64,000 nucleotides of DNA from Halichondria panicea (taxonomy: Eukaryota; Porifera; Demospongiae; Suberitida; Halichondriidae), in assembly GCF_963675165.1 (NCBI RefSeq), contig NC_087382.1:4565963-4629962 (forward strand), written 5' to 3'. The stretch's first letter is position 1. Each line of letters starts with the position of its first letter. Of this stretch, positions 3,859 through 64,000 are shown piece after piece. The position numbers were made by a program, and so were the translations under genes. The notes under the pieces are model-generated. The model did no database searches. It was given only the letters and a program-made list of their open reading frames with translations, and was not told where the DNA came from.

Positions 3859-3865
3859 CCTGCAT

Positions 3866-9905: not shown

Positions 9906-9914
9906 CACAGCTTG

Positions 9915-13274: not shown

Positions 13275-13298
13275 GTTTCGGACCAGCGAGGTTCTACT

Positions 13299-32096: not shown

Positions 32097-32486
32097 CCTG
32101 CATAGCTCAGACAGTAACTGATTTATTTTTGTGCATTTGTGCCTTTTATGCATATAATCATAATGATTACGCCCACAGGAAGTTAATTAGGACTGAATAT
32201 GTAATTCTGAATCAAGTGGTATAGAAAACCCATTTATTGCACATAGAATAAACGGAAAATGAAACTATACACACATAGAATTTATACAACTAAGAAACTA
32301 AATCCTACAGGTAATTGGTGGGTGTGGTTTCCTCCCCCCCACATTTTCGAGGATCTATAGTCAATAATATCGGGTAATTTCGTTAGGTAAAAAACTTGAT
32401 CGTTTGCTTCTGGTTCCGATAAACCACGCCCACGTTTTTAGGGTCAAATTTGGGTCGAGGTTAGCTTGCCACGAAAATACTTACTA

Positions 32487-33376: not shown

Positions 33377-34975
33377 TATATACGGTAACTAAGTGATACA
33401 GTAGACCTTGCTAATCGGGACCAGACCCCATGCATCCGAATACATGACATTTCCAGATTAATTATTAATTATTATGAATATCATTAATGAATACACTTTT
33501 GTACATGTATTATATAATACCGTATAATCTGGTTAGTAAGCGCATGCACCTATAGGGAAAAGAGCAGGCCTCTATCCGATGCGCTTATAGAGATTAATCA
33601 CGCCCATGACCTTTCAATGAAGCAAATCTCCATTAGCTGGCTCAATCGTTATCTGTAAGAGGTCTATATAGTCATATCAACTAGTTAACATCTATAAAGA
33701 AGTGTGGAGACCAGTTGTTGGGCAGAGAACTGTGCAAAAAACCATGCGCCTTCTATCCAGGCTCTTGGTCTGCTAACCAGTATGTGCCTACATTGTTGTA
33801 TTTGTGGCCAGAAGGGAAGTCTTTTATCTCAACTTTCTCTCTAATATACCCTTTCTCTATTAATACGTGAGTGCAGTGGCCATTGTATTGAGCACGTTAT
33901 TGGTTAACCACGTTATTGATAAAATGAAAGCACCACGGGTGCTGATGCCTCGGTGGAGGTGCCAACGCTATATATAGTACATAACATAAAACTACTAATA
34001 GCTAGCTTTTATACACGTACACACATTGATTATAATTATCATGATGAATTTTGCTGCATGCAATCAACCGAATAGTGGGTAATGATCGACCATGATTGTT
34101 GTTAAAAACGATCGATGCCAAAAGTTCAAGTCTAAAATAAATGGCTGCAAAGTCAGCAGAGCCTTACAGCTCTCTGCTCACTCTTGCAGCTACCAATAGC
34201 TAGCGTTCTAGTGCAGAGCTAACTACTAAGTAGAGTAGTAACACTCGGTGAACAAGTTTTGCTACGGACTCTTCTGAAAAGGCTGCAATAGCATTCCAAG
34301 TAAGCAAAACTAGGCATAACTCGAGAACGAAGCATTATTTTGCAAATCCACGAATTAAAATCCAAGTAAACATGACTAGAAGCCTATAGAAACTCTTACT
34401 TGCACTTGATTCATCCTTGAGCAGCTGTAGCGGTCTACACACACAGACACACAGATACATAGCCTCTACACAGGCTCTCCTTTTTCTGTTCTTTATCACA
34501 ATCGTTCAATAAGATAAAATACTGTATTATTCGTTCAATGAGATAAAATACGGTATTAATTGGAGGAATAAAGAAAGAAATAGACGTAAAGTTAGGAAAA
34601 AGGAGAGCATGTATCGGGAAGTCGCGTGAGGGTAGAAGGGTGGTAGAAGGGTGAAAATGAGCGTGGGCATACTGAGCTAGAGATGTTGGACTGCCCACGC
34701 AGAGGTCTACGACTAGTAAAACTTTGCCTGCAGCAAGCTGGACATGGACTTGGAACTGGAAGTTTGCAAGCACTATAGGCTCTAGCTATACCTTAGGCTT
34801 AGCTAGATGATCTACTAGTCTAGATTGTGTGTTTGGATTCTATCACTATTACTTTTTCTTGTGTCTTTCTACATGCTATAGTAGAATAGCTTAGTCATCA
34901 TTATCATATAGCAGGTAGCTACTGCCACCAGAGCTGGCCACGCTGGTTCTCTGATCTGACTTGCAGCACAGCTTG

Positions 34976-35036
34976 TAGATGGGCGTGCCCGTCCCCAGCC
35001 CCCATTTTTATGGCCGGGGACGGGCACGCCCATCTA
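34976..35036. mobile_element. 61-bp near-perfect foldback, unit B
   Basis: Counterpart of 9915-9975 with the same 9-bp duplication. Confidence 0.78.
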
Positions 35037-35474
35037 CACAGCTTGGTGGTTGTCTCAGTGCAGTACAGTACAGTCTTACTCCGAATGTGTGGGAGAATAC
35101 CTTACGTCACGATTGTGGGCTACATATCGCCCACGTTCATAAAAATCCTTGTGGATCACGCGATTTCCCAAACCAGGCCTTACTTTTTCTTAACTGTACG
35201 CCCATTTCTTTCTTTGCTGCCTCACTATGTCTTTCTTATGTTTATGGATGAACAGTGACAACAGCAAGAAAAAGTAAGGCCTGGGAGCGAGGCTAACAGA
35301 TACACAGACACACAAACACACTACCGTATACCTCGCTTGCGCATGCGCACCGAGGCATAATTATTGCTGATTCAGTAAAGCAAATTTTTTTTTTTCCCGT
35401 GTAATATGTAATATCAAAACAATACAACTGTACAAAAGCAACAGACCAAAAGATAAGAGGGGGGGGCATACAGT

Positions 35475-35898
35475 TTAGCGGATACCATCCGCTGAAGGAG
35501 GTAAAGTTTGTTGGCGATGAAGCCACAGGCAGGCATTTCCTCTCCAAAGTGCAATGGCCAGGCGATGAAACAGATGCTTCTTGGTGGAGGATATGGAATG
35601 TGTCAAGGTTACTCTCCGGTCTATGGCATTTCCGATGGCACCTATGATGTTGATTGCTTCTTCGCCTAGACCTCCTAGTGTTTCTGCCACAATGGGAATG
35701 AAGTTTACACCTATGGAGCGGCAGGCCTGTAGATGGGTGGTGAGTTTGCGCCTAACTCCAACTTCTAGGGCGTGTCCAGGGGAGAAGGCAGCTTCATGAA
35801 TGAGGGTTTGCTGGAGTGCGCATGAGCAGTAGTGTATTTTACTGATAGCCCCTCCTCTTTTCAGTTGCCATTTTGTCCGGATTTGCAAGGTTTCGGAC
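35475..35898 (-). pseudogene. Retroelement ORF C-terminal fragment, unit B
   Basis: Counterpart of 10413-10836 with the same deduced sequence, again cut at the palindrome border (35898/35899). Confidence 0.5.
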
Positions 35899-38338
35899 CA
35901 GAGGAGGGAGGACACGATTAACCTTAGCTCTAATTAGCTAATTATCGCAACCTTTTAATTACATTCTTTGAACGATTCATCTTTTCTTTCTTTATAACCG
36001 CTACATATTGGACACAAGAGCTAGAGCCTTTTCTCCTACTGGAGGTACCCCTATGGCCAAGTTGTCAGGACCTGAAGGTAATAGATCAGATCAGTGGACC
36101 AAAGTGGCCAACTTGAATTTAGCACTGTGACCACAGAATCTGAAATTAGCTTTTGGCTATCAGCTTAGCTTTCAGCTTTTGGCTTCTCATCAGCTCAGCT
36201 TTCACCTATCAGCTATCAGCTTTCAGTCAGTATATACAGTGGACCTAAGTGGCCAAGTTGAATTTAGCACTGTGACCACAGAATCTAATGCGTATGAAAT
36301 TAGATTTTGACTATAAAATTATATCAGCTCAGCTTTCAGCTTTTGGTTTATCAGCTATCAATGAACCAGATCAGATCATCACGCTGAATTTTGCATAGAA
36401 ATTAACTTTTCGCAAGCAGCAAATTAAATCAGCTAAGGCTGTAGCTAGCTATAGCTATATCAGCTCTCTGCATGGCTATATATCTCGCTGGCCAGTCCCA
36501 CATCTAGTTTGACCACACCCTCCCAAATTAATGAGGCTGCTAACATCAATTACTGCTAGGATTTTCTAATTTTTTTATGCACCCATGACGTAATAATTAT
36601 ATCAAAAATCATTATTAATTAATTAGTAATTACCAAGTATCGTAATCTAGGGCAGACAGGTTCTTAGTGAATCTGGAGAAAGTTAAGTATGGCATCTTGA
36701 AGGGATGCTTATTGTCACACATCTTTTTGGTGTACTTCCAACGTACTTCCAACATAATGATTAATACTCAGCTAGTTCAACCTGCAAAATTGTTTGTTTG
36801 TTTGATCACCTTTAAGGTTGTTCCTGGGAAATAAGGGCGTGTAAAGGGTGAATTTGCTCCACCACACTGCACGTTCCAGTCTCAATCAAGCAATACTCGA
36901 CATGGGGACATGAGGAGCCTAAATCAAATCACCTATATCGCCCGGCGCAGGTCACACATAATATAATCCATAGGTGGTTTGATTTAGGCTCCTCCTGTCC
37001 TCACTGTCGAGTATTGCTTGATTGAGACTGTGACGTGCAGTGTGGTGGAGCAAATTCACCCTGTACACGCCCTTATTTCCCAGGAACAACCTTAAGGTGG
37101 TCAAACAAACAACAAACATTGCAGGTTGAGTATTAATCATTATGTTGGAAGATATATGTATACACCAAACTGATGTGTGACAATATCCTTTCAAGATGCC
37201 ATACTTAACTTTATTCAGATTCACTAAAAACCTATCGCCCTAGATTACGATACTTGGTAATACTTTATCGAGTTATGGATTGATTTTTGATATGTCATGG
37301 ATGCATAAAAAAGTGAAAGTCGCATGGTTAGGTTAAAATCCTAGTAGTAATATTAGCAGCCTCATTTTAATTTAATTGGGGGGCGTGGCCAGACTAGATG
37401 TGGGACTGGCCATGCAGAGAGCCGATAGCTAGCAGAGGAGGTACGACATCCGCGTGTCAAAGGAAACGTTTTAGACACACATTCCTTAGGTCAAAGTTCG
37501 GAATGTGTGTGTTAAAGACATGCGGATGTCGTACCTCCTCTGGATAGCTAGATAGCTGATAGCTAGCTACAGCCTTAGCTGATTTAATTTGCTGCTTGCG
37601 AAAATTTTATTTCTATGCAAAATTCAGCGTGATGATCTGATCTGGTTCACTGATAGCTGATAAGCCAAAAGCTGAATGCTGAGCTGATAGTCAAAATCTA
37701 ATTTCATATGCATTAGATTCTGTGGTCACAGTGCTAAATTCAACTTGGCCACTTAGGTCCACTGTACTGACTGAAAGCTGATAGCTGATAGGTGAAAGCT
37801 AAGCTGATAGCCAAAAGCTAATTTCAGATTCTGTGGTCACAGTGCTAAATTCAAGTTGGCCACTTTGGTCCACTGATCGTAATAGGACCTATAAGAAGCA
37901 CCTCAAGTACTCCTATCTCTAAGATCCCTGTGAGAAGCATCCCAGGCACTCTGATCTTGTCTCTGTGAGATGACCCTGGAGACAGGATCCCTATGAGGAG
38001 CACCCCAGGCACTCCTGTCTCCAAGATCCCTGTGAGAAGCACCCCAGGCACTCCTGTCTCTGTGATAAAGCTGCAACATGGAATTGTTTAGTTCAGAGTG
38101 TCTCCAACATGAAGAACATCAATGACATTAACAGTCTCAGCTTCTAGCACCCCTTTATTTGTATGGTTTGCTCTGTGCCTGCAAGAATTTCCTGTCACTC
38201 ATACTATAGTACTGTTCTGTGTGTCCCAATATGTAGAGGTTATACAGAAAGAAAAGATGAATCGTTCAAAGAATGTAATTAAAAGGTCGGGATAATTAGC
38301 TAATTAGAGCTAAGGTTAATCGTGTCCTCCCTCCTCTG
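35899..38338. mobile_element. 2.4-kb giant palindromic foldback element, unit B
   Basis: Counterpart of 10837-13274; differs by a few bases, including a small TA-type insertion near 36450. Same ends and 9-bp duplication. Confidence 0.85.
37433..37542. mobile_element. CAGAGGAGG foldback nested in palindrome, unit B
   Basis: Counterpart of 12369-12478. Confidence 0.8.
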
Positions 38339-39548
38339 GTTTCGGACCAGCGAGGTTCTACTTAGCCTCGATTCCAGGCCGTTCTCAATTGAGAAAGACG
38401 AACCTAGCCCCTCTAGTGAGAGGGGCTGGGATCGAGGCTAGGTTCTACTGTACTAACAATATTGATACTCACAACTAAGAAAGCTAGACTAACTGAAACT
38501 GAAACTCTATTTCACCAATACAACAAACAACAAAATTCTAGCTCTGCTTTAATTAAAAGTGAATATTTGCATATTTTGTTTAAAAAATTTATAACTCATG
38601 AACCGTATATTAAAAACACTTGTAACAAAGTTCCACAGGTAGAACCGGACCCATGGACTCATAATTGTTGCCTAGCAATCAACCACCACCCCACAAATAA
38701 CAATTGTTAACAAAAATTCACAATTATGTACACAAACAATATTGTATGATGTTACGAAGTGAATGAACACATGATATAAGTGTTCAGAATGCTCTCACGG
38801 TGACATGGCTCACTCAGGACTCAATCATGATCTGCAGAAACTTGTATTTGAGGTTCTATCAGCAGACGCCTTTTTCCCGGGAAATATTTTCTTCACCTAC
38901 ACACAGGTTTACAAGTTCAATGGTGGCTCATGATGTCCACTGTTGTACTAACTAGCCTAAACAAACCTATAGTGAAGCTATCAAGACTACAAATGCTACT
39001 CTAGTGACTTACCAGGTTCAGGAAGATAGTCCACCTCAAGTGCGTCTTCCTCAGGATTCTCAGGCTCTTTCTTTTTAGTTTGACCTCTGAAAGGAAGCTT
39101 CCTACCTAGCTATGATCTCAGTCACTGTCCTCTCACTCTACAAGGCCATAAGCATCGATATTCTCACTCTCTAGCTTCCCTAGAACCTCCCTGAGGTTGT
39201 ACTACAAAGATCTTGTAGCAATTAATTAATATAAAACGGTCACTTTTCTTTCGATAGAACTGTACCTCGAAGCAAAATATTAAAAATACCACGTAAGAGC
39301 AGCTCAATGCGCATGTGCTGGTACCTGCAGTGTGCGCATAGCTCTAACATAGCCTCGATTCAAGGCCGATTAATCTGCCTGGAATCGAGGCTAGCTCCAA
39401 CACAGCGTGCACAATGATTTTTTGAAATTTATCAGTAGCCATGCCGACTATAGAGTCGGTCTATAGTCGGCTAAAGCGGGGAAAGGGTTAAATCATTGTT
39501 CATCGATTATCAAATAACTGAAACTAAAACACGCTTCTAACCCCACAG

Positions 39549-40815
39549 AGGAGGACTTGCTTGAGACGACGGCCAGTGTCAGCTCTGCTGATTCAGACGA
39601 TTTCTTTGTCGTCATACCGGACTGTTTCGATGTCAGCAAGCCTCTCCTAGGCTACACACCACCTGTCATCCAACCCCAGTATCCTGTTCCACCACCGATT
39701 TTGTCACATGATGTTATGACCAGGTCATCTGACAGTCACATGACCTCGTTCATCGTTGAAGAGCCAAAGCCCACCCTCACAAACTCCACACCCTCACAGA
39801 CCACACCCCCTACGGCTCGTCGTGAGTACGTACCTCAGCGAGTCACACTCAAGAACGTGAGGGACGCTCGCATGTATCGTCGACCTTTCACCGTTGCCGC
39901 CGGACTCGTGAACACAATGTCAGACTTGGTGAGCAGGAAAGTGAAAAAATAGCTCCACCCAGAAAGCCGGAAGAAGTGGGTGTGGTCAACAGCATGGAGG
40001 AAGACAGCAGTAGTGACGAGGAATTCGAGGTGAGAATAACATTTTTAAAACTCCCCACTGTTTCTGGCAGTGTAATTATATAATTTCACTTTCAATTTAG
40101 GTTAGTTTGGAAAATCACAATTTTACAATTTTGTGTTTCATTCTTGATCTCCAGGATGCTCCCGAGCCTCCCACCACTGCCCCTCCCCCTCAGCCGTGGA
40201 AGATCCAGCAGATGCCGAGCGTATCCCACCTCCTACCAGGACATAACTCCGCTCAGTGGGTGCACAGTGATGAGGTGTGTGTGTGTGTGTGTGGGGGGGG
40301 GGGGATTATACAGTATCTAATCTCTTGTGCATAATTATAAGTACACAAACACATTATTGTAGTACTGTACGTTAGTCACATGACGTTAGTCACATGACGT
40401 TAGTCACATGACATTAGCCTGCTTCTACATGTACATGACATGTAAGATGTTATTTTAGTATGTAATTCTACGTGAAAGCTTCCTTTTTTTAACTTTGGTG
40501 TCTGTATGCGTGTCTATTCTATACTTTTTGACTGCAATGTACTCTGTTATCTCCCACCTGCGTGCTCATTATTACCTCCTCCCCCTCCCTCGGCACACAT
40601 GCGCAGGATGGAGCCAAGTGGGTCCAGTCACCTGATGTCTCCCACCTCATCCCTCAGCGCTGGGACGGACCCAAAGCCCCCAGCTCCCCGATGGAGAAGC
40701 TCATCTCAATGGGGTTTGCTGACAGGGCTTTCAACGAACAAATCCTGGCCAAACACAACAATGACACTCCATGGTCCTCAACGAGTTGTTGGATGGTTAC
40801 CAAGTAGACGTCTGA
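39549..40815 (+). pseudogene. NBR1: NBR1 C-terminal exons (LIR and UBA), frameshifted, unit B
   Basis: Counterpart of 14485-15751: exons 39549-40029, 40155-40274 and 40607-40815. Both frame breaks (the A6 run with stop at 39950, and the shift in the UBA segment near 40764) are shared, so they predate the 25-kb duplication or reflect the true, unusual structure. It ends about 290 bp from the PSA stop codon, in convergent orientation. Confidence 0.62.
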
Positions 40816-41108
40816 GCTGAAACAATTCGTGAACTCATTTAAAAAAAAAAAGTTTTTGTGTTGTGTTAACTATAGCGCTATAGCCTCCAAGAACTATCAA
40901 TGTATTTTATACAATTATTTTATATATACTGTACATGTATTATATAATCAAGTGTAATTAAATTTCGAGATAATTCCAAATTTTATTCATGTTACTAATG
41001 TGTGCATGCGCACACTGATATTAATTAATACAAGCAATTCAATAAGGTCACTAATACAGTTGTAAGCACTGTCACTGTTTCAGCAGTTCCAAACATGCAA
41101 TCTCTCGA

Positions 41109-44100
41109 TCACTGACTGGCTAGCCACTCCTTGACGATGTCTCGGTCCCTCTGTAACCATTTGGCGTTGAGTCGAATGGCCTCACAGTTTTGCTTGACGA
41201 TTCTCGCAGCCACTGGCCATGGGTTCTCTGAGAAGAACTTCTCTATTTCACCAGCTCTCTCCTCACTCACAAAGCCAGCAGTGGACACCTGCATGGAGAG
41301 GGAGAGACAACATTTTAATTATAATACACCAGAGACAATTAATTTAAAACTCATACATTCACTAAAGTCTAGTTGAGTTGCCGGCCCCCAGAAGTTCTGT
41401 GGACAATAACTATGCTTCATTTATAGGCTTTATATGAAATTAATTCTTAATTATAGATTTCTAGATAGAACCAGCTTTTTTAACAATGGCCGCTGCATAC
41501 TTATATCGCCAACCGGTACCTCCCCCACACACACTCACATCGATCATCCTAGCCAGCAGGAACTGGCCGTTGTAGCGGTCCTTGAGCATGGTCCAGTTCT
41601 CCTGTACAAACTTCCAGACCCTCTCTCTAGAGTCTGGACACGAGCGGGTGAGGGACATGAGGACTGCAGGGAGGTCCTGGGGGCGTACCTTATCCTGTGA
41701 GAGGGGTAAAGGGATTTAATACTCACATAGTATTATTATACAGACTAGCTGAAAATGCTGTGTACAAATAATTTATAATATTATTGTACGGTACACCAGA
41801 CTCATGCATGCACTGTATACATGGATACCAAATAAGAGCACGGGAGATCAACCAACACTTCAAAGGAGGACCTACATGCCAATTAAGGACCGGTGCTTCC
41901 CTGCATGTACCAAGCAAGATGCCCATGTAAACTATAGTATGAATATTTGTAACTGTATTATGAGTCACAGTACAGAAACATGAATGACATGCACATTAGT
42001 TGAATTACACAAACCACATACACACGTACACTTAGTAGTATACATGTACAAGCAAAGAACAAACTTTGATTAATAATATGCCCCATGCAGAGTATACTAT
42101 TCATGTACATCCCTCGACTTATGCGCACTGATGCATAACCATATAATTGAAATTCTTGATCTGCTTTTATTTATTAGTAGTCCATACAAGGTCACACCCA
42201 CCCCGCCCCCTCACTCACACTGGTGGCAAAGTCGAGGCACTTGGTGATGAGTGTTTCTGTCTTCCCGTTGCCTAGCGAGCTGTAGATCCTCACCTTCTCC
42301 TCGTTGGAGTCAGCCTTGTCGTGGAGCTGCAACCAAATAACAATAGTCACCTAAATTTACTTAACAAAATTTTACATACTGTGGAAGTAAAAACTTCCAG
42401 TCCACTAGATCTGGAAGTATAAAAATGGTACCATAATCCTTATGGTTAATGACAATCATGTAGTCTTCGAAGAAACAGTGCTTAATTGAGGTACTGTAAT
42501 AAATGTACGGGTATTTCATGTCAATTAAGTATAGGCAACCAATATCGAGGTTTCCATGTACGACAATACAGTAGGAAGACGACGAGACAATAATGTGGTA
42601 GTCATTGCATGCTTAGTATTGTCAGGAACAAACGATCCTGGTTATCCTATATTTCAACTCCCTTATAATTATATGCAAGTCTTGTATACGCACTATTTGA
42701 GTTGATACTTGTATAACAAAACCCCCAAAGTACATGTATCAACTGATATTTGAGACCAACAGCTTTCCATTTATAGAACAACTCACCGCCACTAGATGGT
42801 CGAAGATAGATTCATCCCCACCACTGAGAGCAGCTGAGAACACGGCACTCTTAATGTCAGCAGGGATGGCGTCCTTCTCAGAGACATGGTCGCTAAATCT
42901 ACGCTTGGACTCAGATATCATGTCCGGGTCACCATAGCGACCAAGCTGACCAATCACAAGACTCCGCAGCATTGTGTCCAGAGTACCTACATGTACGAGC
43001 GGATGAAATCAATAATCACGAAATGGATTTGTACATGTGAGATATCGGAAATGCATTTCCTGTATACCTGTCACAAATAATTATGCCACACATAAAAACA
43101 GATTGAGGACTATTTATAACCTCCCTGCTATGCTGACAACTTTAACTTTAATGCTACAGCTCCACTAAAGTATAAAATACAAGAGATGAAAACTTAAGAG
43201 ATTGTGCTGGGGGGGGGGGGCTCCTGCATATACTTATTTAATATGGCCTCTAGCTGACATAGTCTAGTTTAACGAGGCCGGAGAGGGCCGGGGGTGAGCC
43301 CCCTCACCTTGGATACGCCTTCTATTTCTTGCTCACCTCCCGGCCTTTCCCCGGCCTCGTTAAATTAGCCATGTTTAATGTTAGGACCGAAGTTTTCAGG
43401 AGACCCCACCTCCCAAACAATCTCTAACTCTTATTAAGTTACAAGTCTTAAATGTACTCACTGTCAGTGTCTTTACTGTCCCAGCCAAGTCGTGCAAAAG
43501 ATGGAGTCAATAGTTTGAGAGCAAATCTCTTGAAATCCTCGTAACAATCGGTGGAGGAGAAGAGACGAGCGAGGCTGCCAATGTTGGAGGCAAGGCTTTC
43601 CCACACCGTGTACGATGTCTCGCTAATAAACGAGCCAATCAGACGCAAGACGTCCACGGTGCTGCCCACTCCAGCACGAGCCTACGTATGTATATAATTA
43701 TACAAAGTAGAAATAATTTTATTAGATATCGTGGTGTACAGTGTGAAAGTATTACGGGTTTGTCATATCTCCCTTTAGGCAAAATGAACGAAATACCACA
43801 GAATACTATCAAAGGCTTACAAAGAGGAGCCCTCGATACTATAAGCTAGCCTCTTCAGTCAATCTGCATAAGAATTACTACAATGACCTTTGCCGTTGAC
43901 ACGTATTACACTACGTTATCTACCCTTCAAATACAAGTGTGTGTGTGTGTGTGTGTGTGGGCGGGGGGTGACGTACAAGAGCGAAGGTGTCATTGAGTAG
44001 CCCGAGGCGGTCCTGTGCTGACAGCTGCCCCAGAATGGAGAGGATGGGGGAGAGAAGAGTGGCCGAGTATGACACACGGTAGAAACCTTGACGACTTGGG

Positions 44101-47100: not shown

Positions 47101-50100
47101 GTGGGTGTTCATCTAGATGCATATTCAAATGACTTGAGGTGCAGAGTGTTGCTACACTACTTAAGCAAACCAAGTAAGAGAATTAATGTACATCAGCAAA
47201 AGTACTGTAAAACAATAGAGCATTTGTTCGGGAGAAGTGGAGATGTCGAGCCAAAGTAGCAAAAGCATGCATGGTCCTCATCCTATGTTGAATCCGTAAC
47301 AGTGCTACAGATACTCTTTGAAAATCTAGGCACTTAGGAGAAGTTCAAGCAAAGATACACATACATCTGTACATAATTATGAAGCTTGTGGGTAGATCAA
47401 AATCATGATCAGCTTTGTTTTGTGGTTTAGTGGTGTGAGTACTCACTTCAACATTCAAATGAATCAACCTACTTGAAAAGTACTGTACAGGGTTTTGCAG
47501 AGTCTTTGAAATAGAGGGTGTAGAGCGTTCCTTATATGGATATCTAATGTTTACACATTGTGGTGTCATATACACATTGTGGTGAAATGCCAAGTCTGAT
47601 TGAGAAGCAAAATTCAAACTTTTTCTTGTGAAAAAAGCTGACCAAGGGAATATAAGGTGGAGAATAATGCATCAGACAGAGCTGCTTGGACTGTCTTATC
47701 AAAGTGTTGCTGAGAATCTTCAAGTTGATCCATCAACTGTTTGTAGAATAGTGCATTGTTGACATGCTGACTAAGATCTACAACTTTATGGTTGACCACA
47801 GATAACCTTATAAGGAACGCTCAACGCAAAACGCTTTTTTGTGGATATTGCAAAGATTCTGCAAAACCCTGTACATCTGATGTACAGTATATGCCTACAT
47901 TCTCTATTATAATTATACTCTTGGTATTATTAGGCCTTCCCCTTGGTTGGCCTTCCAAAAATTTTGAGAATTATATTGACTGTCTCATCTGTATGCTTTC
48001 AAGTCTTAACTGCACCTTTTATAGTGTGACCCAGTGTGAACTTATTGTGGTGTTGCATATAACACTCATGAATAACATTACAAACAGTAAATGGAATGCA
48101 AGAATAATTGATATTGTATACTATACTGACAGCCGTGACAGGAGATCCTGCTTCATTGAACATACCACTGTCTACACTCAACACTATAATTATAGAGAAG
48201 TAATGTTTCATCCTTCGCTAATTATACAATTTAAGCTGTTAGAAAACAATAGTACACACTAGGACAAATGGAATATATACGTATTTGAAAGCACTATAGC
48301 GTCTGGGATACTTCTGAAAATCACATAAATCGCTGCCAGAGCACAAGTTACATATATACATGTATGCTAGTTTGAGATGCTACTCCTCCGATAATACAAG
48401 GTTGGTAAATGATACGATTATAGACAGTACACTATAGCACAATGACACTACCCCTAAGCACAAGCGTTCGGAAAATCTACCTTGGACCCAGAGGAGGATC
48501 GTCAAGGTCAAAAGGTCTTAATCATAAAGCTATTTCCGGAGGACTTTCCACTCAACTAGCTCCATGTGAATTGGAGATACTAAAGGAAGAGTAGATGATC
48601 AATTAAAGTCCTCCGGAAGCAGCTTTTTGATTAAGACCTTTTGACCCTGACGATCTTCCACTACCTTGGACCCAAAAATTATAGTAGCAGTGTTTCTATA
48701 GACACAGACCAAGTAAGTGGCTTACCTCAATGGGATGAGAGTTATCGAGGGCGTCTAGATTTAGAGCACTGGCGTACTCTCGACTGAGGAAGTTGGTCCA
48801 AATCTCGAACTCTGGGTGGGTGTGGTCAACGCACAGGTATTCAATCCAAGTGGCGAAACCCTCGTTAAGCCAGAGATGGGTCCACCACTCCATGGTCACC
48901 TGACGTGGGCAATTAACATACATGTTAACGGAATTTATATTACTGCATGAACACTCACTAAACCAACCCCACACTCCACACTTATCACACTCCCCACTCC
49001 CACACTTATCACTCCGGCTCTATATATACCCTCACTATTTTTCACACTATCCCCACTTTCTACACTTTCCGCCCCCGCACTCCTCACACTATATAATTAT
49101 ATCATCACCACTCTTCACACCACCCCACCCTCCTCACACCTCACACCCTCACCAAGTTGCCGAACCACTGATGAGCGATCTCATGACCCACAACGAGGGC
49201 CACCAGCTGTTTAGTGAAGGCTGATGAGTTAACAGGATCAACCAGCAGCAGCCGCTCCCTGCATGAAGGTAAAGGGGAAGAGGCATACAAAGTATACAAA
49301 CAAGAAAGTAAGGGCATAAAGAGTATACCAGGAGTATACTCCAGATTAAACAAACAATTTTTCAGTAATTTTACAAAGGCACAATGAAGCTATGAAGGTT
49401 GTAAGTTAAGTAGCTCCCAGGGCCACCGTACTTCTTTGGCACGCATACTAAAAAATCAACATCCCGGTGTGACATGGTCCTTTAGAGATCCTTATACATG
49501 TAGGTCTCAAAATCCAATTGACACCAGAGGAAAAATACTAAAGCAACGCTTACCCTAGCACTTTGTTGCTAATGATTTTGAATAGATTGTAGCAACTAAC
49601 TACACGGTAGGTCTTGTAGGAGAGTAACTTGTAATTGACCACACCCACCTGTAAGTGACGAGCCCCCAGTTCTCCATGGCACCAGCTGCAAAGTCCTGGA
49701 TGGCGATGAGGTCCATCTTTGGCAGAGGGTACTTGATGTCAAAGTAGGTGGCGTAGAAGGGGAGGGTCTTCACAGCAACCTGGGGGGTAGAATGTGTGCT
49801 AATGATACAGCAACCTGGGGGGTAGAATGTGTGGTAATAATACTGCTAGTGATACAACACACTGGGGGGTATATAAAATGCTACGCAAACATTGAGGTAT
49901 ATAACTTAAGTTTGTGGGAGGTCAAATTATAACTTCAAAAATAAATCTGCTACTCTAATGGTGGTTGATTTATAATTTTAGCTCTAAGGGAGGTCTATCA
50001 ATAAACTCTGTCAAGTAATTAATTTAACTCACATCAAGAGCGTACTGTCCGTTCTCCTTCTTGCCTGTGGGCGTGAACACCCTCACCAGCACGCCATTGG

Positions 50101-53100
50101 AGTCCCGCCCCTCTACATGGTCAAACTCTCCCACGATAAATGCCAGGAGGTACGTGGACATGATGGGAGTGCGGGCAAACATCACTCTCTTTAGACCGCC
50201 CTCCACATCCTCACAGCTCGTCTCGTTCTGTGGGAGGAGGGGGAGTGTGTGTGAAGTAGGTGGAGTGTGTGTGTGTGTGTGCAGATCCAGAGGAGGTCCG
50301 ACAGGCGCGGTGCAGCTCAAGTAATTAGCCTCTGATTACTCTCAGCAAAAACATACGACGTGGACGGATAATTATTGTTAATTGCCTGAGCTGCACCGCG
50401 CCTGTCGTACCTCCTCTGGTGCAGATCGATTCATATAGTTGGGTGGAGGGTGACAGTATATTAATATCCCAATTTTTTTTAAAAGGCTGCTTTTTGTAAA
50501 GCAATTGAACAATTAAGCAACCTATAGTTGCTGTTAAGAGGGGTAGCTACAAATTGACCGGTTTTGACTACAACATAAATTATATAATTTTTACATCAAT
50601 TCCGCATCACAATCATGAGACTACAGTATGCTAGTACAATAGGGCAAGGTCTAGTATATTGTTGTAGAAAGACAAAGTCAGCTAGTGTAGGCTGAATGGG
50701 GTAATCAGAATGGGGGATTTCCACGGATTTCCCCACCAGTGCATAGAGTACAATAGTGAAATCATGTCATACACATGTACATGTATATCTCACTACATGT
50801 ATTAAATGTATAATTATACTCACCATGTTGGACAGAGCCACAAGGTCCTTGGGTACAATGAGGGTGACATCAAAGGAGGCCTTGATGAGCGGTTCGTCCC
50901 AGCAGGGGAGGGCCCGACGAGCATCAGCTGCCTGTGTGTGGGCAGGGGAGGGCACATGTTAGTTACACTCACAACTAGATACACACCCATCCACTCTACA
51001 TATATCTACCAACGAGTAAACATCTTTTAGTAATTTAGTAAACGTCAAGCTTTGACAAGTATACACACAAAGTAACAGATAATATTTATTGACACTCTCA
51101 CACAGCCAAACATTGACAACTGAAAAGTCACACAATACAGACTAAAACTGTTTAAAAGACAGTTGCTACAAGAACAGGAAACATATCACACTATAGACGT
51201 CTCAACAATTCTACAGACTAGACATAACACATACACTAGCTAGGTACAGTTGCAGTTATCTTTACAAAAGTTGGGTTTAACTAAAAGATACCACGGTATA
51301 AGCAGAGACATTATTACGCTGGTAAAGTAACCAGTGACTTGAAACGCTCGACCAGTGTGCCTTAGCGGACTCAAACCCTTTGCAGCTTCAGAAACACCAT
51401 ACCCCACAATTGCAAGTAGTATCAAAAGAGCTATAATAATTATCAAGCTGACACTAAGTATGAGCCAAATTCTAGCTTTCTTTTTGAGTAGAACTTTCTT
51501 GAGTAGAGCAGTGTTAATAGCTGTGATAATAGTTAATTCAAAACGAGTGAACGACAGCAGACCACCCATTACCGATAATGCCATAGTGTAATCGAAAACT
51601 AATTCGTAGCATACAGCACTTTGCTTTTGATTGTCAACAATCTCAGTGCAGTTGGTGATAGGTACCTCGTTGAAGTTGTTGTCAAGGATATAACAGTCTC
51701 GACTGGCATCACAATTTAGATCAGATTTGACAAACAAAGCGTCAGCTCCTACAGATAAAGAAAAAGCAAGCCACAGCAAAGCTTTAATGATCAATATGAA
51801 CTGGAAAAAATTTGCTTTTTCCAGCACTGGAATGTCATCAACATACACAACTTGCCGGCCCAGTTTATCAATATAAGTCACTCTTGGTATCTCTCTCAGC
51901 ACGCCTTGGTTGCTCCCATACACAACTCTAACGATGAAATTAAATAGTCCCATTAGCTCAAAGTACACAAACCATAGCTTTGAGTAGTCACATCTAAATT
52001 CAGTTTGACATTCTGCATCCTTAAATCCAACTTCAGTTTCGTTATCTTCGTTAGAATCTGCTCTACTCACTATCTCCATAATTGGTTCTAGCGTAGGTAG
52101 ACACTCGACTCTAAGTGGAGGTGTACTATATATAGTGCCTTCAACTGAGGGAGTAGGTGAGTTAGAATCCGATTTAGGCCTGCACTTGCAATTACATGTA
52201 GATGTGTGATGGCAATATTTCCCATTGCAATCTGCACATTCACATGCCTTACACTCGAGTTTCTTACACTTTTTGCAGTGACAAGTTTCACAAAGACAAG
52301 GTTCTGGAGGCTTCCTTGAACACTCATTGCATCCTGGGAAGAAATGACAGCTTTTGTAAGAGTCTTTCTTACAATCACCACCCTTGCCATTGTCACCGGA
52401 GGCCAGGGGATCACTAGCCTCAACACGATCAATACAGTCCTCACAAGCACAAGGTGTTGCTGGGTTGTCCATACATTTGAGACGGTTGCAACTAGTGCAG
52501 TGACAGTACTTGCATGCCTTAGGGCAGTAGCTGAACTCCTTGAGGGATTTTTCGAGTTGGTCTCTCTTGAAGCAGCACAAACTACACCACATACAACCTG
52601 CTATAGAAATGAAGAATCCAAAAATTATCCATATGAGGATAATGGGACCAATGTCCCAATTTAGGTAACAGCTCTCAACATGGCAGAAGCTACCCATCCT
52701 CTTAATAAGCACTATATAGCACAGAGTGAAAACTTATATATTTTTGTGCATTTATTTTGCAAAACATGCTAATGATTACGCCCACAGGAAGTTAGGACTG
52801 AATATGCAATTTTGAATCACGTGGTATAGAAACCCAGGAATGCATTATTGAATAAACTGAATTACACACATAGAATTGATACGACAGCATACAGTAAAGA
52901 AACTAAATCCCAGTCAGGGTTTCATACAGAGGGGGGGGGGGGCGCCCTGGGATTTCCCCCACCTGGAAATATGAAAAATTAATGATGTCATACCATTTCA
53001 GATAGATCTACATGTAGCTATAATGATTATTCTACGTGTATCAGTTGAGAAAAAGTCTCTTACATACATCAGGAGTGCTACATGTATATCCAATCTAGCA

Positions 53101-56100
53101 CATGGTACAGTTCAAAGTTCAGACAGGGATCACATGCATGTATACAATTATTATTATATGATACCCTTTGAAATTTAAAACTTACAACATAAGTAGTGCA
53201 TGTACATAGTGGGACCATAGATAGAGTAGAGAGGGATTGGCAACGGAAGTGGTTCACGTGATGTTTTACAATGAAGTCTATGTAGAGCTCAGAAACAATC
53301 CGTGTTTCGCTTTCTACCCGGGTAAGTTTACCAGGAAACTTATTGAGTCTAATCATGGCTAATGCATGCGTCTCAAAGACCCCTCTAACACACAAATGCC
53401 CCCTGATGGTGAGTATCATTTGGAAACGAAGAAAATAAAATCTTGATTGTCATGAAGTAGCTAGTCTAACACAGAGCAATTTTTCATGCTTGTGTTAGTT
53501 TAGCTACGTTATAGTTAGAACATGGGTACGAGGTATATATCTATGTGTTATAGTGTCCCAAAGCTCGAGGGCTTTAGCCCGAGGGATGAGGGACACTATA
53601 ACCATAGATACCGAATGCACATGTGCTAGATCCCACTTTTCATTGGCTGCCTCAGGCAAGAAGTGTATCTATAAAAGCAGCAAGCCTTAGCACAGCTTTA
53701 TTTTGAAAATGTCCTGTTCTGACAAGCTAGATGATTTCTGCTTCTCTGCTAAAAAAACCTTTGCATTGGCCTTGCTTCAACATTGGAACTAGTGACTCCA
53801 CCTTGTGCAGGAAGCGCTCTGCAACAAATGAGCCCAGCCTCCTCTTTTTTCTGCACTCAAGCCCCACCCCAGCTCAAGCTTCTCAGTAAACTGTTCTGAT
53901 CTGTACGGCTAGCTAGCAAGGAACAGCTTGCAGCAATGCTACAGTGCACTATCGTTCCCAAAAAGACACAGGAGTCTACTGAAGTAAACAATTTGAAACA
54001 TGGCTGCAGGATAGAAACAGAAGTCAGGAGGACGAAGTTGACAAATGCTACAAGTTGAAGACATACTTTCATGCTTGTGACAATGGACCCAGAACTATTA
54101 AAATCATTGGCTCTTAGTGTTCCTCGTAGAGACAAGAAAAGATACTGGGGAACTCTACCATCAACCCAGCAAACGCTATAGAAACTGGTAGTGAAAAAAC
54201 TGAACAGCCATAGCTAATTATCATGCAGCTACAGCTATTATCATTTCTGTACATTCAAAAAATTATACTTGTACTTTATACCCTCAAGCTTATAATTCCC
54301 TGGGAAACTATGAGATTATGGCTCATAATTCCCTGCTAAACACACACAAGTGGGATCTAATATGATATAGCTAAGGTTGTGTCACTAAGTAGTGTGCTGT
54401 GTCCCAACTGGCCACAAGTATTTGATGAAGTTGATGTTTAGCAGCAGAACTGCTCGTGGACTTTTTACAGACAGCAAAAACAATTCTCATGAATTCTTCA
54501 TGTTTAGACCCCACGTTGGAAGTAAGCCTCGATTAAAACCGCGGGGAAACACGGATGGTACTTCGAGGGTACCTCGTTTCCCAATCCCTCTCTACTCCAT
54601 CTATGGTGGGGCCATAGGCTCTGTACACACATGCACTAGAGGTCAATTTGAGTACCTTTTCTGCTTTGCTAAAAAAATGTTTTTTTTCCGGTGAGTTGAA
54701 GGTGTACAATGCAGTAAGAACAGTTAAGAAATAGTTTTAAGCACAAAAACCTCCAAATTGCACCTTAGACAATCATTCTGCCAAATTTTCAACAGCGTAC
54801 GGCCGTCGTCATTTCCCCCCCTTGGCTAAAAATCCTGTATGAAACCCTGCCAGTTCAATAGCTATAGACTACCTTATATAGCTAGCGGGTAATTTTCGTC
54901 GGGGTTGAACTTGAACAGCGGTAATTTTCGTAAGTAAAAATTTCGTCCAAGATGTAGCAATACTTACTTTCATCACAATCATAATCAGAAGCTACAAAAA
55001 AAATATCAAAAAATGTTGACAAGCAAACGACAGTCAGCAATATAGATTTCAGTGTCAGAGCCAAATGCAGCAAAAAAGCCTTCTCAAGAATTGGAACATT
55101 GTTTATGTAGGCAATCTCCCTACCACGGCAATCAACACTACGTAATGTTTTGATTTCTCTTAGCGGACCTAAATTTCCACCATAGAAAACATTGCCAGCT
55201 CTTAAGAGGCTATTCATTTTGAAAGTTTTTTTGAAAAAGTATTTAATATTTTTGTAAAGGCTTTTACATGAACAAGAGATGTTTCGCTCAATAGAAGAAG
55301 AACAACCTTCACAACAACCTCCACACCACAGCATGACAAACAGTATATGATAACATCACAAATACCCCAAACTTTCAAAGCCTTATGCTTTATGACACCT
55401 TTGCAGTCTTCACATCCTGGCCTAGGATGCTTTCCTTTAAATGAAGTTCCTTCCCGGCAAGAAGAGAGGATCACTCTCTAAACTGTTTGGCAGAACTAAA
55501 GACAAAGATGTTGACCTGAGGCACGAACTAGAAGCAAAGACACAGCAATCAAAGTCCATCGATTTTGCAGCACTGGAGAAAAAGAAAGATGTTGAATTGG
55601 TCGAAACATTTATTACAAGTGCACGCACTGGAGCCATCACTGCACTTTAGATGGCCACAATTACGACAATAACAGTTTCCACAAGGAGCCTCTTTGTCAC
55701 AAGTTACACTCTGCTTTTTTAGACAACAATAATGCTGGCAAAAAGGTGCTACGACAAAAACACCTATAGACACACCTCCAAAAACCCATGTTAATAAAAT
55801 AGGCAATAAATCCAACAAAAGAAACACAAGTTCCACATAACGACTCATGATAGAAGACTTTCTTGTTAGCTCTAAATTCTGCTCAAGTTGCGAATTAATG
55901 TACGTTTCTAATTACTCGCACGTGGTTTTAATGAGATTTATTGCATTTTCCAATTATCTGCGAGTACGACTCTCATTTTTGCAGAAATTAATGACCCGCA
56001 AAAATATGTCACCTTTTACAAACATCATTAAAACTGTGTGCGCCCATTTAGATCCGTGCAGAAGAGGGACAGGTCTCATTTGGTCGCTAATTACGCTATT

Positions 56101-57487
56101 AAAAGAGGCATATTCGAGTATTAAATTGACTTCAAAAATTCTGGGCACACCACTGTTAACAGTATAATTATGTGTATCCCACATACCTCAAACTGAGTGA
56201 CTCCAGCGTATCTCTCCTCATTAGGGAAGTCGGGATGAGTGTACTTGGAGCGATAGAATCCTCTCATCTGGTCGTTAAGGATACCAGTGTACTCCATGCT
56301 CACTGTCGTCTCTCCCACGGCAAGGTCAGAGGTCAACTGGAGGGTGACAGTCTCAGCTTCAACATCATACGTCACAGTTACATCTGTGGGCAGGAAGGGT
56401 GTGGGCAGGAAGGGTGTGGGCAGGAAGGGTGTGGGTAGGAGGGGAAATCATCTATTAATTGCTGTACACATTTCCCACTAGTGTATCGTAACAGCCATGT
56501 ACGTTTACCAACTAGGGTATTTCCCTTCAGTGTTGTTACATTCCACTGTAGATAGGGTGCTTTCCCTCACCCTCTTGATATCGCAATACATTTGATATTA
56601 GATAGGGTGCTTTCCCCTTATATTGCTACATAACTATGATTGTACGCTAGGTATTTTCCCTTTGTTATTATTAATAGCAACGGCTTATAAAGAGAAATCT
56701 CCTTATAAATCCTTGGTCAAAAATAAACTAGTCATGGACCATGAGTTGAAATGTTGATGAGGCAGTTGTAATCTATTGAAATTAGTTTACCACTTCTTGA
56801 AAATGAAGTATATTGCAAACCAATAAGCACACACACACACACACACATACACACACACACGCACCTTGACCTCCACACTTTGCAGAAGTAATCTCAATCT
56901 CAGCAGAGTTCAGAACAATCCGATTGGTCGATTTTTTTACCTGTAGTTTATACATACAACTTATCCACAACTACTAATCCCATTAGGAGGTATATTCATT
57001 ACTACCATTACTTCCTACAAGTTGGTACACCAAATGATACACTGAACGCAGGAAGGTATCGGATAAGATACGGTAAAGCGTATAGTTTATGATAATCTAT
57101 TAAATCCGAGACAATCAATATTCAACACTAGCACTGGAGATCACACTTTAACACCTACAGTATAATTATTAAATTATAACTGCGTAAATTGTAGTTTAAC
57201 CTCAACGCTAAAGCTTGGTCGTCCGATATCCGATAGCCTTGTATCAGCCATGTTAACTATGCATCAAAGCATGCAGCTATAGTACTAGCTCATGCAGCCA
57301 GCTCACTCACATCCATAGTGATGTCGAGTGTGCCAGTGAACTTGAACAGTTTGAGGTCTGGCCTCAGCTCCAGTTTGTAGTTGGTGGGCACTACATCAGT
57401 AGGAAGACGCTCGAATGGTTTCTTATCAGCAGCCATGGTACCAAGCACGATAAGCAGAGTAAGTAATTCTGTAGTTGTAGCTTGCAA
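41109..57487 (-). CDS. NPEPPS: Puromycin-sensitive aminopeptidase, complete 19-exon gene
   Basis: Cytosolic M1 zinc aminopeptidase that trims peptides from the N terminus. Exons, 5' to 3': 57487-57311, 56940-56865, 56383-56187, 50931-50824, 50227-50033, 49779-49649, 49258-49153, 48899-48726, 45864-45760, 45615-45555, 45501-45392, 45045-44982, 44886-44753, 44105-43977, 43681-43462, 42986-42787, 42326-42219, 41694-41539, 41288-41109. All junctions are GT/AG and the phases join into 876 codons, close to the 875 of the human short form. Visible motifs: GAMEN (residues 284-288), HEIAH (320-324) and Glu343, giving HEXXH-x18-E, plus the catalytic-type Tyr in ISYAKG (about 406). The first Met adds a short hydrophobic leader; a second Met at 57436 starts [12 protein letters not shown], the usual PSA start, and is the likelier cytosolic start. 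Intron 3 (5.2 kb) houses another gene. Exons 15-19 are nearly identical to those of the copy at 16-18.6 kb, so reads will map ambiguously. Confidence 0.93.
46211..46402. repeat. 19-bp minisatellite, ten copies, unit B only
   Basis: Unit TGCATGAGCATCAGGTCCA; first and last copies read CAAGTCCA and the eight middle ones CAGGTCCA. Unit A has a single copy near 22248. Confidence 0.9.
46620..47923. mobile_element. Tc1/IS630-like transposon remnant, unit B only
   Basis: 1304 bp with inverted ends CAAGAGTATA and complement, similarity continuing about 50 bp inward, flanked by 7-bp repeats GTATTAT. Absent from unit A near 22500. Plus-strand 47637-47759 encodes a helix-turn-helix-like piece ([19 protein letters not shown] then PSTVCRIVH) typical of Tc1/mariner/IS630 transposases, then stops. 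A 270-bp inverted repeat (46676-46945) with three direct copies of a GTGGGTGAT-containing motif is nested inside. Confidence 0.6.
50288..50418. mobile_element. CAGAGGAGG foldback in PSA intron 4
   Basis: 131 bp, ends cagaggaggtccgacaggcg and near complement, exact 9-bp duplication GTGCAGATC (50279-50287 and 50419-50427). Units A and B have the empty site (about 1359 and 26428). Confidence 0.82.
51240..52697 (-). CDS. Cys-rich multipass membrane protein nested in PSA intron 3
   Basis: Diverged single copy of the family, 485 residues from [10 protein letters not shown] (the frame opens five codons earlier). It lies wholly inside intron 3 of the intact PSA gene, same strand, without introns of its own. 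The N-terminal hydrophobic segment, both C-H-C-x2-C-x2-L-x-C motifs ([22 protein letters not shown]), the conserved [20 protein letters not shown] segment and the C-terminal membrane segments are kept. The central linker is shorter and different, and the membrane segments have drifted while staying hydrophobic. That pattern (open frame, conserved core, conservative drift) argues for a functional protein. Family and function are unknown to me. Confidence 0.75.
   Translation of the reverse strand: MGSFCHVESCYLNWDIGPIILIWIIFGFFISIAGCMWCSLCCFKRDQLEKSLKEFSYCPKACKYCHCTSCNRLKCMDNPATPCACEDCIDRVEASDPLASGDNGKGGDCKKDSYKSCHFFPGCNECSRKPPEPCLCETCHCKKCKKLECKACECADCNGKYCHHTSTCNCKCRPKSDSNSPTPSVEGTIYSTPPLRVECLPTLEPIMEIVSRADSNEDNETEVGFKDAECQTEFRCDYSKLWFVYFELMGLFNFIVRVVYGSNQGVLREIPRVTYIDKLGRQVVYVDDIPVLEKANFFQFILIIKALLWLAFSLSVGADALFVKSDLNCDASRDCYILDNNFNEVPITNCTEIVDNQKQSAVCYELVFDYTMALSVMGGLLSFTRFELTIITAINTALLKKVLLKKKARIWLILSVSLIIIIALLILLAIVGYGVSEAAKGLSPLRHTGRAFQVTGYFTSVIMSLLIPWYLLVKPNFCKDNCNCT
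52915..54849. mobile_element. 1.9-kb inverted-repeat element in PSA intron 3
   Basis: Ends CAGGGTTTCATACAG and its complement, flanked by CCAGT direct repeats (52910-52914 and 54850-54854). The 5-bp duplication and CAGGG start resemble the element at 235-839, so a hAT-like origin is possible. Inner inverted pieces lie near 53214-53245 and 54575-54605. No transposase frame recognised; open frames inside look accidental. It may have removed the 3' part of the Cys-rich relative at 54882. Confidence 0.65.
53538..53610. mobile_element. Small hairpin nested in 1.9-kb element
   Basis: Arms TATCTATGTGTTATAGTGTCCC-like at 53538 and the complement ending 53610, loop containing CTCGAGGGCTTTAGCCC. Probably a nested MITE or an end-related structure. 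Confidence 0.5.
54882..55848 (-). pseudogene. Broken, diverged Cys-rich membrane protein relative
   Basis: Three minus-strand pieces in different frames follow the family layout. 55848-55549 has the N-terminal hydrophobic segment and [11 protein letters not shown]. The frame at 55474 has a short PGCEDCKG piece matching the family PGCDEC. 55334-54882 matches the conserved core ([33 protein letters not shown]). The C-terminal third is missing; the homology stops near the transposon end at 54849. It is much more diverged than the other copies, so it is an older relative. It could instead be a spliced gene, but no convincing donor/acceptor pair joins the pieces. Confidence 0.6.
56386..56445. repeat. 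15-bp repeats in PSA intron 2
   Basis: GTGGGCAGGAAGGGT, about four copies, directly upstream of the exon 3 acceptor on the minus strand, where the complement is CCCACACCCTTCCTGC-like and supplies the pyrimidine tract. Confidence 0.75.
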
Positions 57488-61275: not shown

Positions 61276-62452
61276 GATGTAATCTAGGATTGGTTACAGG
61301 CAAAAATGATTTACTAAGGTAGCCCAATAATCATGGTATCGTATGACACCTTTGCATCTCTGAAGGTGAGTAGGAGAGTGTCCCTAGTGTATATGGAGCC
61401 GGAAACACCCCACAGTTGTGTATATGTATAAACACACCACATCAAGCTGTGAAGGTATACCTACACATGCACCCACATATATATACATGCCGATGGTTGC
61501 AGGTCATTGAGGTTACCAATTACTGTCTGTGGTCTAGCCACATTAAAATTTCCCTTAGCACATGCATGTTTCCACTTGTGTAAACAAGCTGTTAATTAAT
61601 TGGTCTGCCCAGTGGCCACCATAATTAAGCTAATTTCACAGCAATGATCTCACTATAATTAACCATTATCATATATGTAGTATATATAATACACAGGAAT
61701 TAACAAAAGTATAGTAGTTGAACTCTGCATGAACACCCAAGCACTATACACATTATATTCTTTGGACTTGGTTTTATTTTCCGTTTTGAAGTCCAGGTGA
61801 ACATCCATCTCCGACAAAGAGCGGTGACTAATTAATAGTCCTGAGAACCGGTACATCCAACAGGTCAACCTTGCCTGCATGGCCTGTGTGTGTGTTTGGG
61901 GTGGGGAAAGAGATGTAACGGCACTAGTATACTGGCTAGTACAGTGTAATTAACTTTAATTGAAAATCCGGAATGCATACAAGTGCAGCCACACCCCCAA
62001 ATTTTTTTTGTAAGAAGAATTTCATTTTATCTTTCTTGTTTTGGGTGTAAAATTTGTGCAGCGTTTGCAGGCACGCATAAATCTGGGAAACTGTTATTTT
62101 TTCTATTTAAAGCCCCCTTATTATATATGCGTATTTAAAGTATCCGCTGAACTAAAAATGCTGGACAATTTTTCCAGGCACCACAAGAAAGATAAAATGA
62201 AGATCTTTTTCCTAAAAAAATTTGGGGGTGGCTGCACTTGTATGCATTCCGGATTTTCAATTCAAGGTAATTACACTGTAACACCACCCTCAAAGGTCAC
62301 ATGACCTACAAATTTGTTCAGCATGTAGCTTCTTTATGAGACTACATTCCTACAAAATTTCATTGATTCATATGAAACTATCTCAAAGATATGATCACTT
62401 GTACAAAAAAAATCACGGTTGTTTCTCCATGTAACCAATCCTAGATTACATC
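61276..62452. mobile_element. 1.2-kb inverted-repeat pair with nested element
   Basis: The motif GATGTAATCTAGGATTGGTT at 61276 recurs inverted at 62452. Between them lies a further 341-bp element. Ends share the GATGTAATCTA motif with 46620 and 60871. Otherwise no gene seen. Confidence 0.45.
61940..62280. mobile_element. 341-bp TACAGTGTAATTA element
   Basis: About 70-bp inverted arms (TACAGTGTAATTA inward through GCATACAAGTGCAGCCAC) and complement. MITE-type; no coding capacity. Confidence 0.7.
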
Positions 62453-62516
62453 ATCTATATACCTTCCTAATGACGTCATAGTAGCTGGTAGGTGAATATA
62501 GTAGGTAACTAGTAGC

Positions 62517-64000
62517 ATGCAGCAGTACAGTAGCACTGGTAGCAGCAGTAGCAGCAGTAGCACTGGTAGCACTGGTAGCACTGGTAGCAGCAGTAGCACT
62601 GGTAGCAGTAGTAGCAGCAGTAGCACAGGTAGCACTGGTAGCAGCAGTAGCACTGGTAGCAGTATAGTAGCAGCAGTAGCATTGGTAGCAGTAGTAGCAC
62701 TGGTAGCAGCAGTAGCACTGGTAGCAGTAGTAGCAGCAGTAGCACTGGTAGCACTGGTAGCAGCAGTAGCACTGGTAGCAGTATAGTAGCAGCAGTAGCA
62801 TTGGTAGCAGTAGTAGCACTGGTAGCAGCAGTAGCACTGGTAGCAGTAGTAGCCGACTGGTAGCACTGGTAGCGCTGGTAGCAGCAGTAGCACTGGTAGC
62901 AGCAGTAGCACTGGTAGCACTGGTAGCAGCAGTAGCACTGGTAGCACTGGTAACAGTAGTAGCATTGGTAGCATTGGTAGCAGTAGTAGCACTGGTAGCA
63001 GCAGTAGCACTGGTAGCAGTAGTAGCACTGGTAGCGCTGGTATAGCACTGGTAGCACGCACTGGTAGCAGCAGTAGCACTAGTAGCGCTGGTAGCAGCAG
63101 TAGCACTGGTAGCGCTGGTAGCACTGGTAGCACTGGTAGCAGCAGTAGTCTAGCACTGGTAGCAGCAGTATAGCATTGGTAGCACTGGTAGCAGCAGTAG
63201 CACTGGTAGCGCTGGTAGCACTGGTAGCAGTAGTAGCACTGGTAGCGCTGGTAGCACTGGTAGCAGCAGTAGCACTGGTAGCACTGGTAGCAGCAGTAGC
63301 ACTGGTAGCACTGGTAGCAGCAGTAGCACTGGTAGCGCTGGTAGCAGCAGTAGCACTGGTAGCACTGGTAGCAGCAGTAGCGCTGGTAGCAGCATGCAGT
63401 AGCACTGGTAGCGCTGGTAGCAGCAGTAGCACTAGTAGCACTGGTAGCAGCAGTAGCACTGGTAGCGCTGGTAGCAGCAGTAGCACTGGTAGCACTGGTA
63501 GCAGCAGTAGCACTGGTAGCGCTGGTAGCACTGGTAGCAGTAGTAGCACTGGTAGCGCTGGTAGCAGTAGTAGCACTGGTAGCGCTGGTAGCACTGGTAG
63601 CAGCAGTAGCACTGGTAGCACTGGTAGCAGCAGTAGCACTGGTAGCACTGGTAGCAGCAGTAGCACTGGTAGCGCTGGTAGCAGCAGTAGCACTGGTAGC
63701 ACTGGTAGCAGCAGTAGCGCTGGTAGCAGCATGCAGTAGCACTGGTAGCGCTGGTAGCAGCAGTAGCACTAGTAGCACTGGTAGCACTGGTAGCACTGGT
63801 AGCAGCAGTAGCACTGGTAGCGCTGGTATATAGCAGTAGTAGCACTGGTAGCGCTGGTAGCAGCAGTAGCACTGGTAGCACTGGTAGCAGCAGTAGCACT
63901 AGTAGCGCTGGTAGCAGTAGCAGTGGTAGCAGCAGTAGCACTGGTAGCAGTAGTAGCACGTACTGGTAGCGCTGGTAGCAGCACTGGTAGCACTAGTAGC
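62517..64000. repeat. AGC/ACT/GGT satellite, runs off right edge
   Basis: About 1.5 kb built from AGCAGT and AGCACTGGT-type triplet blocks (also AGCGCTGGT and AGCATTGGT). Higher-order copies are visible: an AGTATAGTAG variant recurs at 62661 and 62780, and an AGCATGCAGT variant at 63391 and 63728. The array is nearly stop-free in several frames on both strands and so creates large false open frames (Ser/Thr/Gly, Leu/Pro/Val, Cys/Tyr). Confidence 0.93.

Follow-up and report, generated by a model that had tools for sequence, protein, structure and literature searches.

The intronless reading frame at 51240-52697, on the minus strand of a 64,000-nucleotide stretch of the Halichondria panicea genome (the window), is very probably a member of an undescribed, lineage-expanded family with a shared membrane anatomy. 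Genome searches with single proteins indicate that this gene, hereafter gene E, is no isolated oddity but one of a few dozen diverse single-exon membrane-protein genes across the genome. A preliminary description had placed an intronless frame of about 485 codons here, and this was confirmed exactly: the frame is intact, begins at an ATG with A at -3 and G at +4, and comprises 485 codons plus a stop. As the best overall explanation we propose, with moderate confidence, a lineage-expanded family of receptor-type proteins with about five passes, carrying a metal-binding loop in the clade to which gene E belongs.

With gene E as the query, a search of the host genome returned 29 matches at E<=10, including clusters on other contigs, and searches with four further members and with a broken fragment from the window (F) gave overlapping sets of matches. 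A profile run over the frames of the fetched loci yielded 44 clusters on nine contigs. Two of these merge an intact with a broken copy, and the count is therefore at least 27 long single-exon frames, spread over eight contigs, plus some 19 loci that are broken or partial. This census is a lower bound, as are the genome search counts themselves: one partial match (C1:6674340) lies outside it, and two loci (L033 and L034) were fetched but contained no frame at E<=0.001. The 27 rows used below exclude the broken loci and count both members of two near-duplicate pairs from the window (copies A/C and B/D). An ATG precedes the first membrane segment (TM1) in 26 of the 27 long frames, L017 being the exception.

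The family is strongly diverged, with members outside the window (15 of 18 rows) showing 16-36% identity to gene E. A profile of the window clade matched those of five other groups at 84.0-99.5% probability, with two weak group pairs in the same comparison (c4-c5, 23.5%; oth-c5, 36.9%), whereas a five-pass control made of two DuoxA genes of the host genome, their exons crudely joined, reached 0.1-0.5%. The presence of DuoxA genes fits an animal genome. In a tree, the Cys-rich genes (the five intact window copies and C11:1480308-1481579) grouped together with support of 100/98, and the C4 cluster stood next to this clade (99/97). Intact and broken members occur together in the clusters, as in lineage-expanded receptor-type families. 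One region of about 100 kb (G000:C11:5191600-5297900) contains intact and broken members with at least two subfamilies adjacent, one of them lacking a cysteine pair.

A common signature runs through the family: a tyrosine and a proline at TM1, a loop with two or four cysteines, a GG in TM3 and a proline in TM5. In gene E numbering, P18, C329, C350, G378 and G379 are invariant (27/27 rows), Y11, just before TM1, is present in 26/27, C335, C363, V291 and L381 in 24/27, and D334 and P468 in 23/27. TM1 of gene E lies at 52584-52652 (residues ~16-38, hydropathy core 19-37) and TM2 at 51732-51806 (core 300-318), preceded at 51816-51923 by a predicted cytosolic segment, recorded as 35 letters, which includes V291 and whose shape appears to be family-wide. 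A predicted extracellular or lumenal loop from C329 to C363 (51609-51713), with four cysteines and the sequon NCT, leads to TM3 (51507-51584, containing G378-G379), TM4 (51393-51467) and TM5 (51282-51341, containing P468), all on the minus strand; the ends of TM1, TM2 and TM4 were set by eye, and TM3, which falls below the hydropathy cut-off in gene E, was placed from its relatives.

Three rows lack C335, and the same three also lack C363. This paired loss suggests predicted disulfides 329-350 and 335-363 and provides a testable disulfide map; all three rows belong to one related group on C11, such that the loss counts as one event. An N-glycosylation sequon is found at the TM2-TM3 loop in 26/27 rows, in 17/27 as N-C-S/T on the third cysteine. 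Lysines and arginines number 0-3 per row before TM1, 1-13 after TM3 and 0-4 between TM4 and TM5. Together, hydropathy, sequons and charge point to a protein with its N-terminus and TM2-TM3 loop outside and its C-terminus inside. The charge distribution fits an outside N-terminus in most rows but not cleanly, with a single K/R after TM3 in L018 and L019 and 0-4 in the supposedly outer TM4-TM5 loop.

Hydropathy segments number four to six per row. In gene E the simple hydropathy scan picked up TM1, TM2, TM4, TM5 and one additional stretch (residues ~241-259) but not TM3; the additional stretch is most readily read as an interfacial helix, but because of it and of the missed TM3 a six-span form of gene E with its N-terminus inside is possible. 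The original count of one plus about four membrane segments thus holds within this uncertainty. The highly conserved 20-residue segment singled out earlier is indeed identical in all five intact window copies, and would represent the window version of the family-wide cytosolic pre-TM2 element, possibly a beta-hairpin. Two features of the C-terminal region occur in subsets of members. Acidic di-leucine-type motifs ([DE]xxxL[LIVM], for example ERQPLL) are present in 5/27 (L007:5420-6352, L009:1096-2046, L019:623-1651, L020:480-1523 and L023:534-1583) and could mean endolysosomal sorting. Two C4 members (L007:1349-2710 and L008:7896-9272) have long tails, on the predicted cytosolic side, with repeats of the type LNVTG..LNVNPVL, perhaps forming a beta-solenoid.

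Sequence searches of Pfam, NCBIfam and PDB gave no credible match for the family, bearing out, for these libraries, the view that the layout belongs to no named family. Across 18 members, 21 Pfam families appeared at E<=1, none of them in more than two members; the strongest, DUF3333 (1.6e-5) and DUF4153 (0.0038), each in a single member, were judged to be generic membrane-helix matches, as was the best NCBIfam match (3.3e-4, one member). The best PDB profile match (E 0.02) covered 65 columns of a kappa-opioid receptor chain and was attributed to chance, as were S1P receptor 3 chains at E 1.3-2.9. A scan of viral and prokaryote contigs, which detects close relatives only, found none of the 245-residue C-terminal part of gene E. 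In the literature searched, five short family peptide strings were not found, nor anything relevant on such families in sponges. Novelty is judged here against Pfam, NCBIfam, PDB and the viral and prokaryote contigs; eukaryotic protein databases may well contain relatives from other animals as uncharacterised entries.

In terms of topology, the chief alternative is a claudin- or DUOXA-like junction or partner protein, that is, a tetraspan family of adhesion or channel-like type in which TM2-TM5 form a claudin-like bundle preceded by an additional span at the N-terminus. Claudins consist of a span, a loop with two cysteines, a second span, a cytosolic loop and two further spans. DUOXA proteins have five spans, an outside N-terminus and a claudin-like, sequon-bearing loop between spans 2 and 3. 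Our family shares the claudin-superfamily order (PF13903, PF00822) of span, Cys loop, span, cytosolic loop and two spans, here preceded by one predicted N-outside span. It likewise resembles DUOXA (PF10204) in its approximately five spans and in its predicted outside N-terminus and sequon-bearing span 2-3 loop. In contrast to claudins, it has the additional N-terminal span and, in 24/27 rows, four loop cysteines; in contrast to the DuoxA genes of the same genome, each of which matches in three separate pieces, as with introns, and has a much longer loop, its genes are single-exon. Each sequence test of the rival failed: none of the 18 members matched a Pfam DuoxA or claudin model at E<=1, the DuoxA profile comparison stayed at 0.1-0.5%, and a genome search with Claudin_2 (PF13903), in which weak matches can be missed, gave a single sub-threshold match located elsewhere. 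A large, diverse and partly broken family would also be unusual for junction proteins, and we consider this reading unlikely.

Single-exon genes, clusters, broken copies and strong divergence are features that our family shares with lineage-expanded chemoreceptor-type families. It differs from GPCR-type chemoreceptors, which have seven spans, in its four to six hydropathy segments per row; no GPCR, OR/GR or IR family was among the Pfam matches of the 18 members, and the PDB profile search gave weak, partial GPCR stretches only.

The two Cys motifs noted in the preliminary description are present in gene E as two copies of C-x2-C-[HY]-C-x2-C-x2-L-x-C...C-x-C-x2-C, located at 52434-52514 (module 1, predicted cytosolic, recorded as 14 letters and a later CACEDC) and 52227-52292 (module 2, 22 letters), both on the minus strand. 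Two instances of the shorter pattern C-x2-C-[HY]-C-x2-C-x2-L-x-C...C are present in each of E, B and D and one in each of A, C, L005 and F (minus strand, 55606-55683 in F), with the first motif copy in A and C short of one residue; a six-frame scan of the loci and the window, 199,275 bases in all, gave no others. The TM1-TM2 linker follows the same division: it is long in the intact window copies (254-291 residues), intermediate in L005 (144) and short in each of the 21 remaining long frames (35-69). Since pattern and long linker are confined to one clade, the Cys motifs are, on present alignments, a clade-specific insertion into the TM1-TM2 linker and not part of the family core, with a module that was probably duplicated once. 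The original layout was therefore correct as to the motifs themselves, but mixed a clade insertion with the family core and missed the genome-wide family.

The composition of the insertion, with 26 cysteines among residues 46-175 of gene E, makes it reasonably probable that the Cys loop binds metal. If the loop were the working part, the proteins might be metal sensors, buffers or transporters, and it is this Cys-rich part that has the lowest dN/dS between E and A (0.30). However, all 21 long frames that fall outside the Cys-rich clade lack a match to the motif and have a short linker, so metal handling cannot be the function of the whole family, and four isolated Cys regions gave no Pfam match above the cut-off (that of L005 had two sub-threshold matches only, E 0.29 and 3.9); as an account of the family, this reading is rather improbable. 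The spacing of the modules also resembles the C-x-C..C..L..C...C-x-C-x2-C type known from CXC domains (TCR/CXC, PF03638). CXC identity was rejected: a genome search gave 32 matches at E<=1, none in family genes (weak ones can be missed), and no CXC match was found among the four isolated Cys regions.

Four intact window relatives, in-frame indels and the dN/dS between E and A indicate that gene E is a real, intact, protein-coding gene. Indels that keep the frame were concentrated inside the gene in comparisons of A with B (5/5 inside versus 2/11 outside; Fisher p 0.005), E with B (11/13 versus 5/15; p 0.009) and E with A (14/16 versus 4/15, counted from the indel list), and E differed from B at 344/1439 sites in the gene versus 191/479 outside it. 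Overall dN/dS was 0.50 for E-A and 0.54 for E-B. Among the five regions of the E-A comparison, the Cys-rich part was followed by the pre-TM2 segment (0.37), TM2 to the end (0.55), the linker (0.64) and the N-terminus (0.69). For A and B, dN/dS was 1.24, which is not below 1, and divergence was slightly higher inside the gene than outside (52/1551 versus 18/852; p 0.10), giving no sign of recent purifying selection for this pair. Positive selection between them was considered and set aside, as the value is not significant (binomial p 0.17, at an assumed neutral share of 0.765). Polyadenylation signals were not enriched among the long frames (16/27 versus 13.1 expected), which is a point against the proposed family reading.

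A chance or decaying intronic frame, or a mobile-element gene, could claim for itself the broken relic in the same intron, the roughly 19 broken loci and the A-B ratio, but is highly improbable given 485 open codons, in-frame indels, E-A constraint, common signature residues and paralogues outside the window too diverged, at 16-36% identity, for a recent mobile burst.

Gene E was described as lying within intron 3 of a PSA gene on the same strand, and M1 aminopeptidase exons on either side of it confirm the nested position. From its domain matches, the host is an M1 aminopeptidase gene, putatively PSA, and the intron possibly its third. Gene E is flanked by minus-strand exons that match consecutive M1_N model positions, one upstream of both E and F (56187-56378, model 61-123) and one downstream of E (50818-50940, model 121-161), which places it wholly within a single host intron, some 5.2 kb long. 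Further along the same strand, within 48723-49779, come the exons of the catalytic M1 domain (48723-48899, 49144-49263 and 49648-49779). Nesting itself is ordinary in sponges, to judge from the 2432 nested genes (12.4%) counted in Aphrocallistes vastus (PMC10282587).

The five copies counted earlier are the intact frames of the window, all on the minus strand: A (2284-3858, 524 codons), B (5469-7025, 518 codons from MGN), C (27354-28928, identical to A), D (30540-32096, one base from B) and E. A sixth, F (54882-55911, minus strand), shares its intron with E; it is the relic of a related gene, with a broken frame and a truncated 3' end. The identity of A with C and near-identity of B with D follow from a segmental duplication in which about 20 kb recur 25 kb further on; over the first 17.7 kb the two segments show 12 differences. 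These two pairs of genes carry no information on selection. The duplicated halves (792-18500 and ~25861-43570) diverge abruptly, by more than 10-fold, from ~18.5 kb on; the duplication is either very recent or an assembly or haplotype artefact. Each half also contains a long imperfect palindrome (11425-12348 and 36489-37412; 924 bases, 77% self-inverted), and a minisatellite-like tract at 62441-63992, open in several frames on both strands, codes for repeats of TSATAAT and CYQCYC type.

Copy A is accompanied by a copy of the host exon (1761-1889), and copy B by a second, frame-shifted one (5010-5066), indicating that segmental duplication carried the window copies along with a host exon. The extra aminopeptidase exon copies adjoining B (5010-5066) and D (30081-30137) both shift frame after 'WDEP'. 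No match to a 5' exon of the 56187-56378 type was listed for host copies 1 and 2, and the genes nested in them appear to stay intact within partial hosts.

The absence of introns had been taken to suggest that gene E arose by retroposition, a proposal that we find unsupported, as all 27 long frames are single-exon over the membrane core. Lack of introns is thus a family trait and no mark of recent retroposition for gene E, such that the nested copy no longer stands out as a stray retrogene. The family-wide lack of introns and the apparent spread by DNA duplication weaken the idea for gene E; retroposition of a distant founder is possible. No intron-containing parent gene was found among the 27 long relatives (a lower-bound census in which UTR introns are not visible). 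Birth-and-death evolution is typical of receptor families, and the many broken members that the clusters hold fit this pattern.

Lineage-specific receptor families typically combine single-exon genes in clusters, broken copies, strong divergence and a compact outer disulfide loop, and it is this combination in our family, with the outer loop predicted, that leads us to a receptor-like reading, with receptor function itself put forward tentatively. A family protein would act as a surface or endolysosomal receptor, in which the small disulfide-bonded loop and the TM3-TM5 bundle would meet the ligand and the cytosolic pre-TM2 element would relay the signal. In the Cys-rich clade, the TM1-TM2 loop would carry one or two Cys8-type modules, which may coordinate zinc or a different metal and serve as a docking site for a partner. 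A bolder version, which we regard as speculative and unlikely, is that the family members are surface receptors or ligand-gated channels of a class new among animals and confined to this lineage, in which approximately five spans, a mini disulfide loop outside and a cytosolic gating or signalling element would be combined with interchangeable cytosolic modules such as a zinc-cluster-like loop.

If the receptor-type reading is true, this genome carries an unnamed family of several dozen genes that would be labelled 'uncharacterised' one gene at a time in Pfam-based annotation. With its signature (P in TM1, C-x5-C, C, C-Y and GG in TM3), the family can be searched for in other early animals. To our knowledge, sponges have no odorant receptors of the insect or vertebrate type, and the family would be a candidate for sensing the environment or microbes in an animal that lacks the usual sensory receptors.
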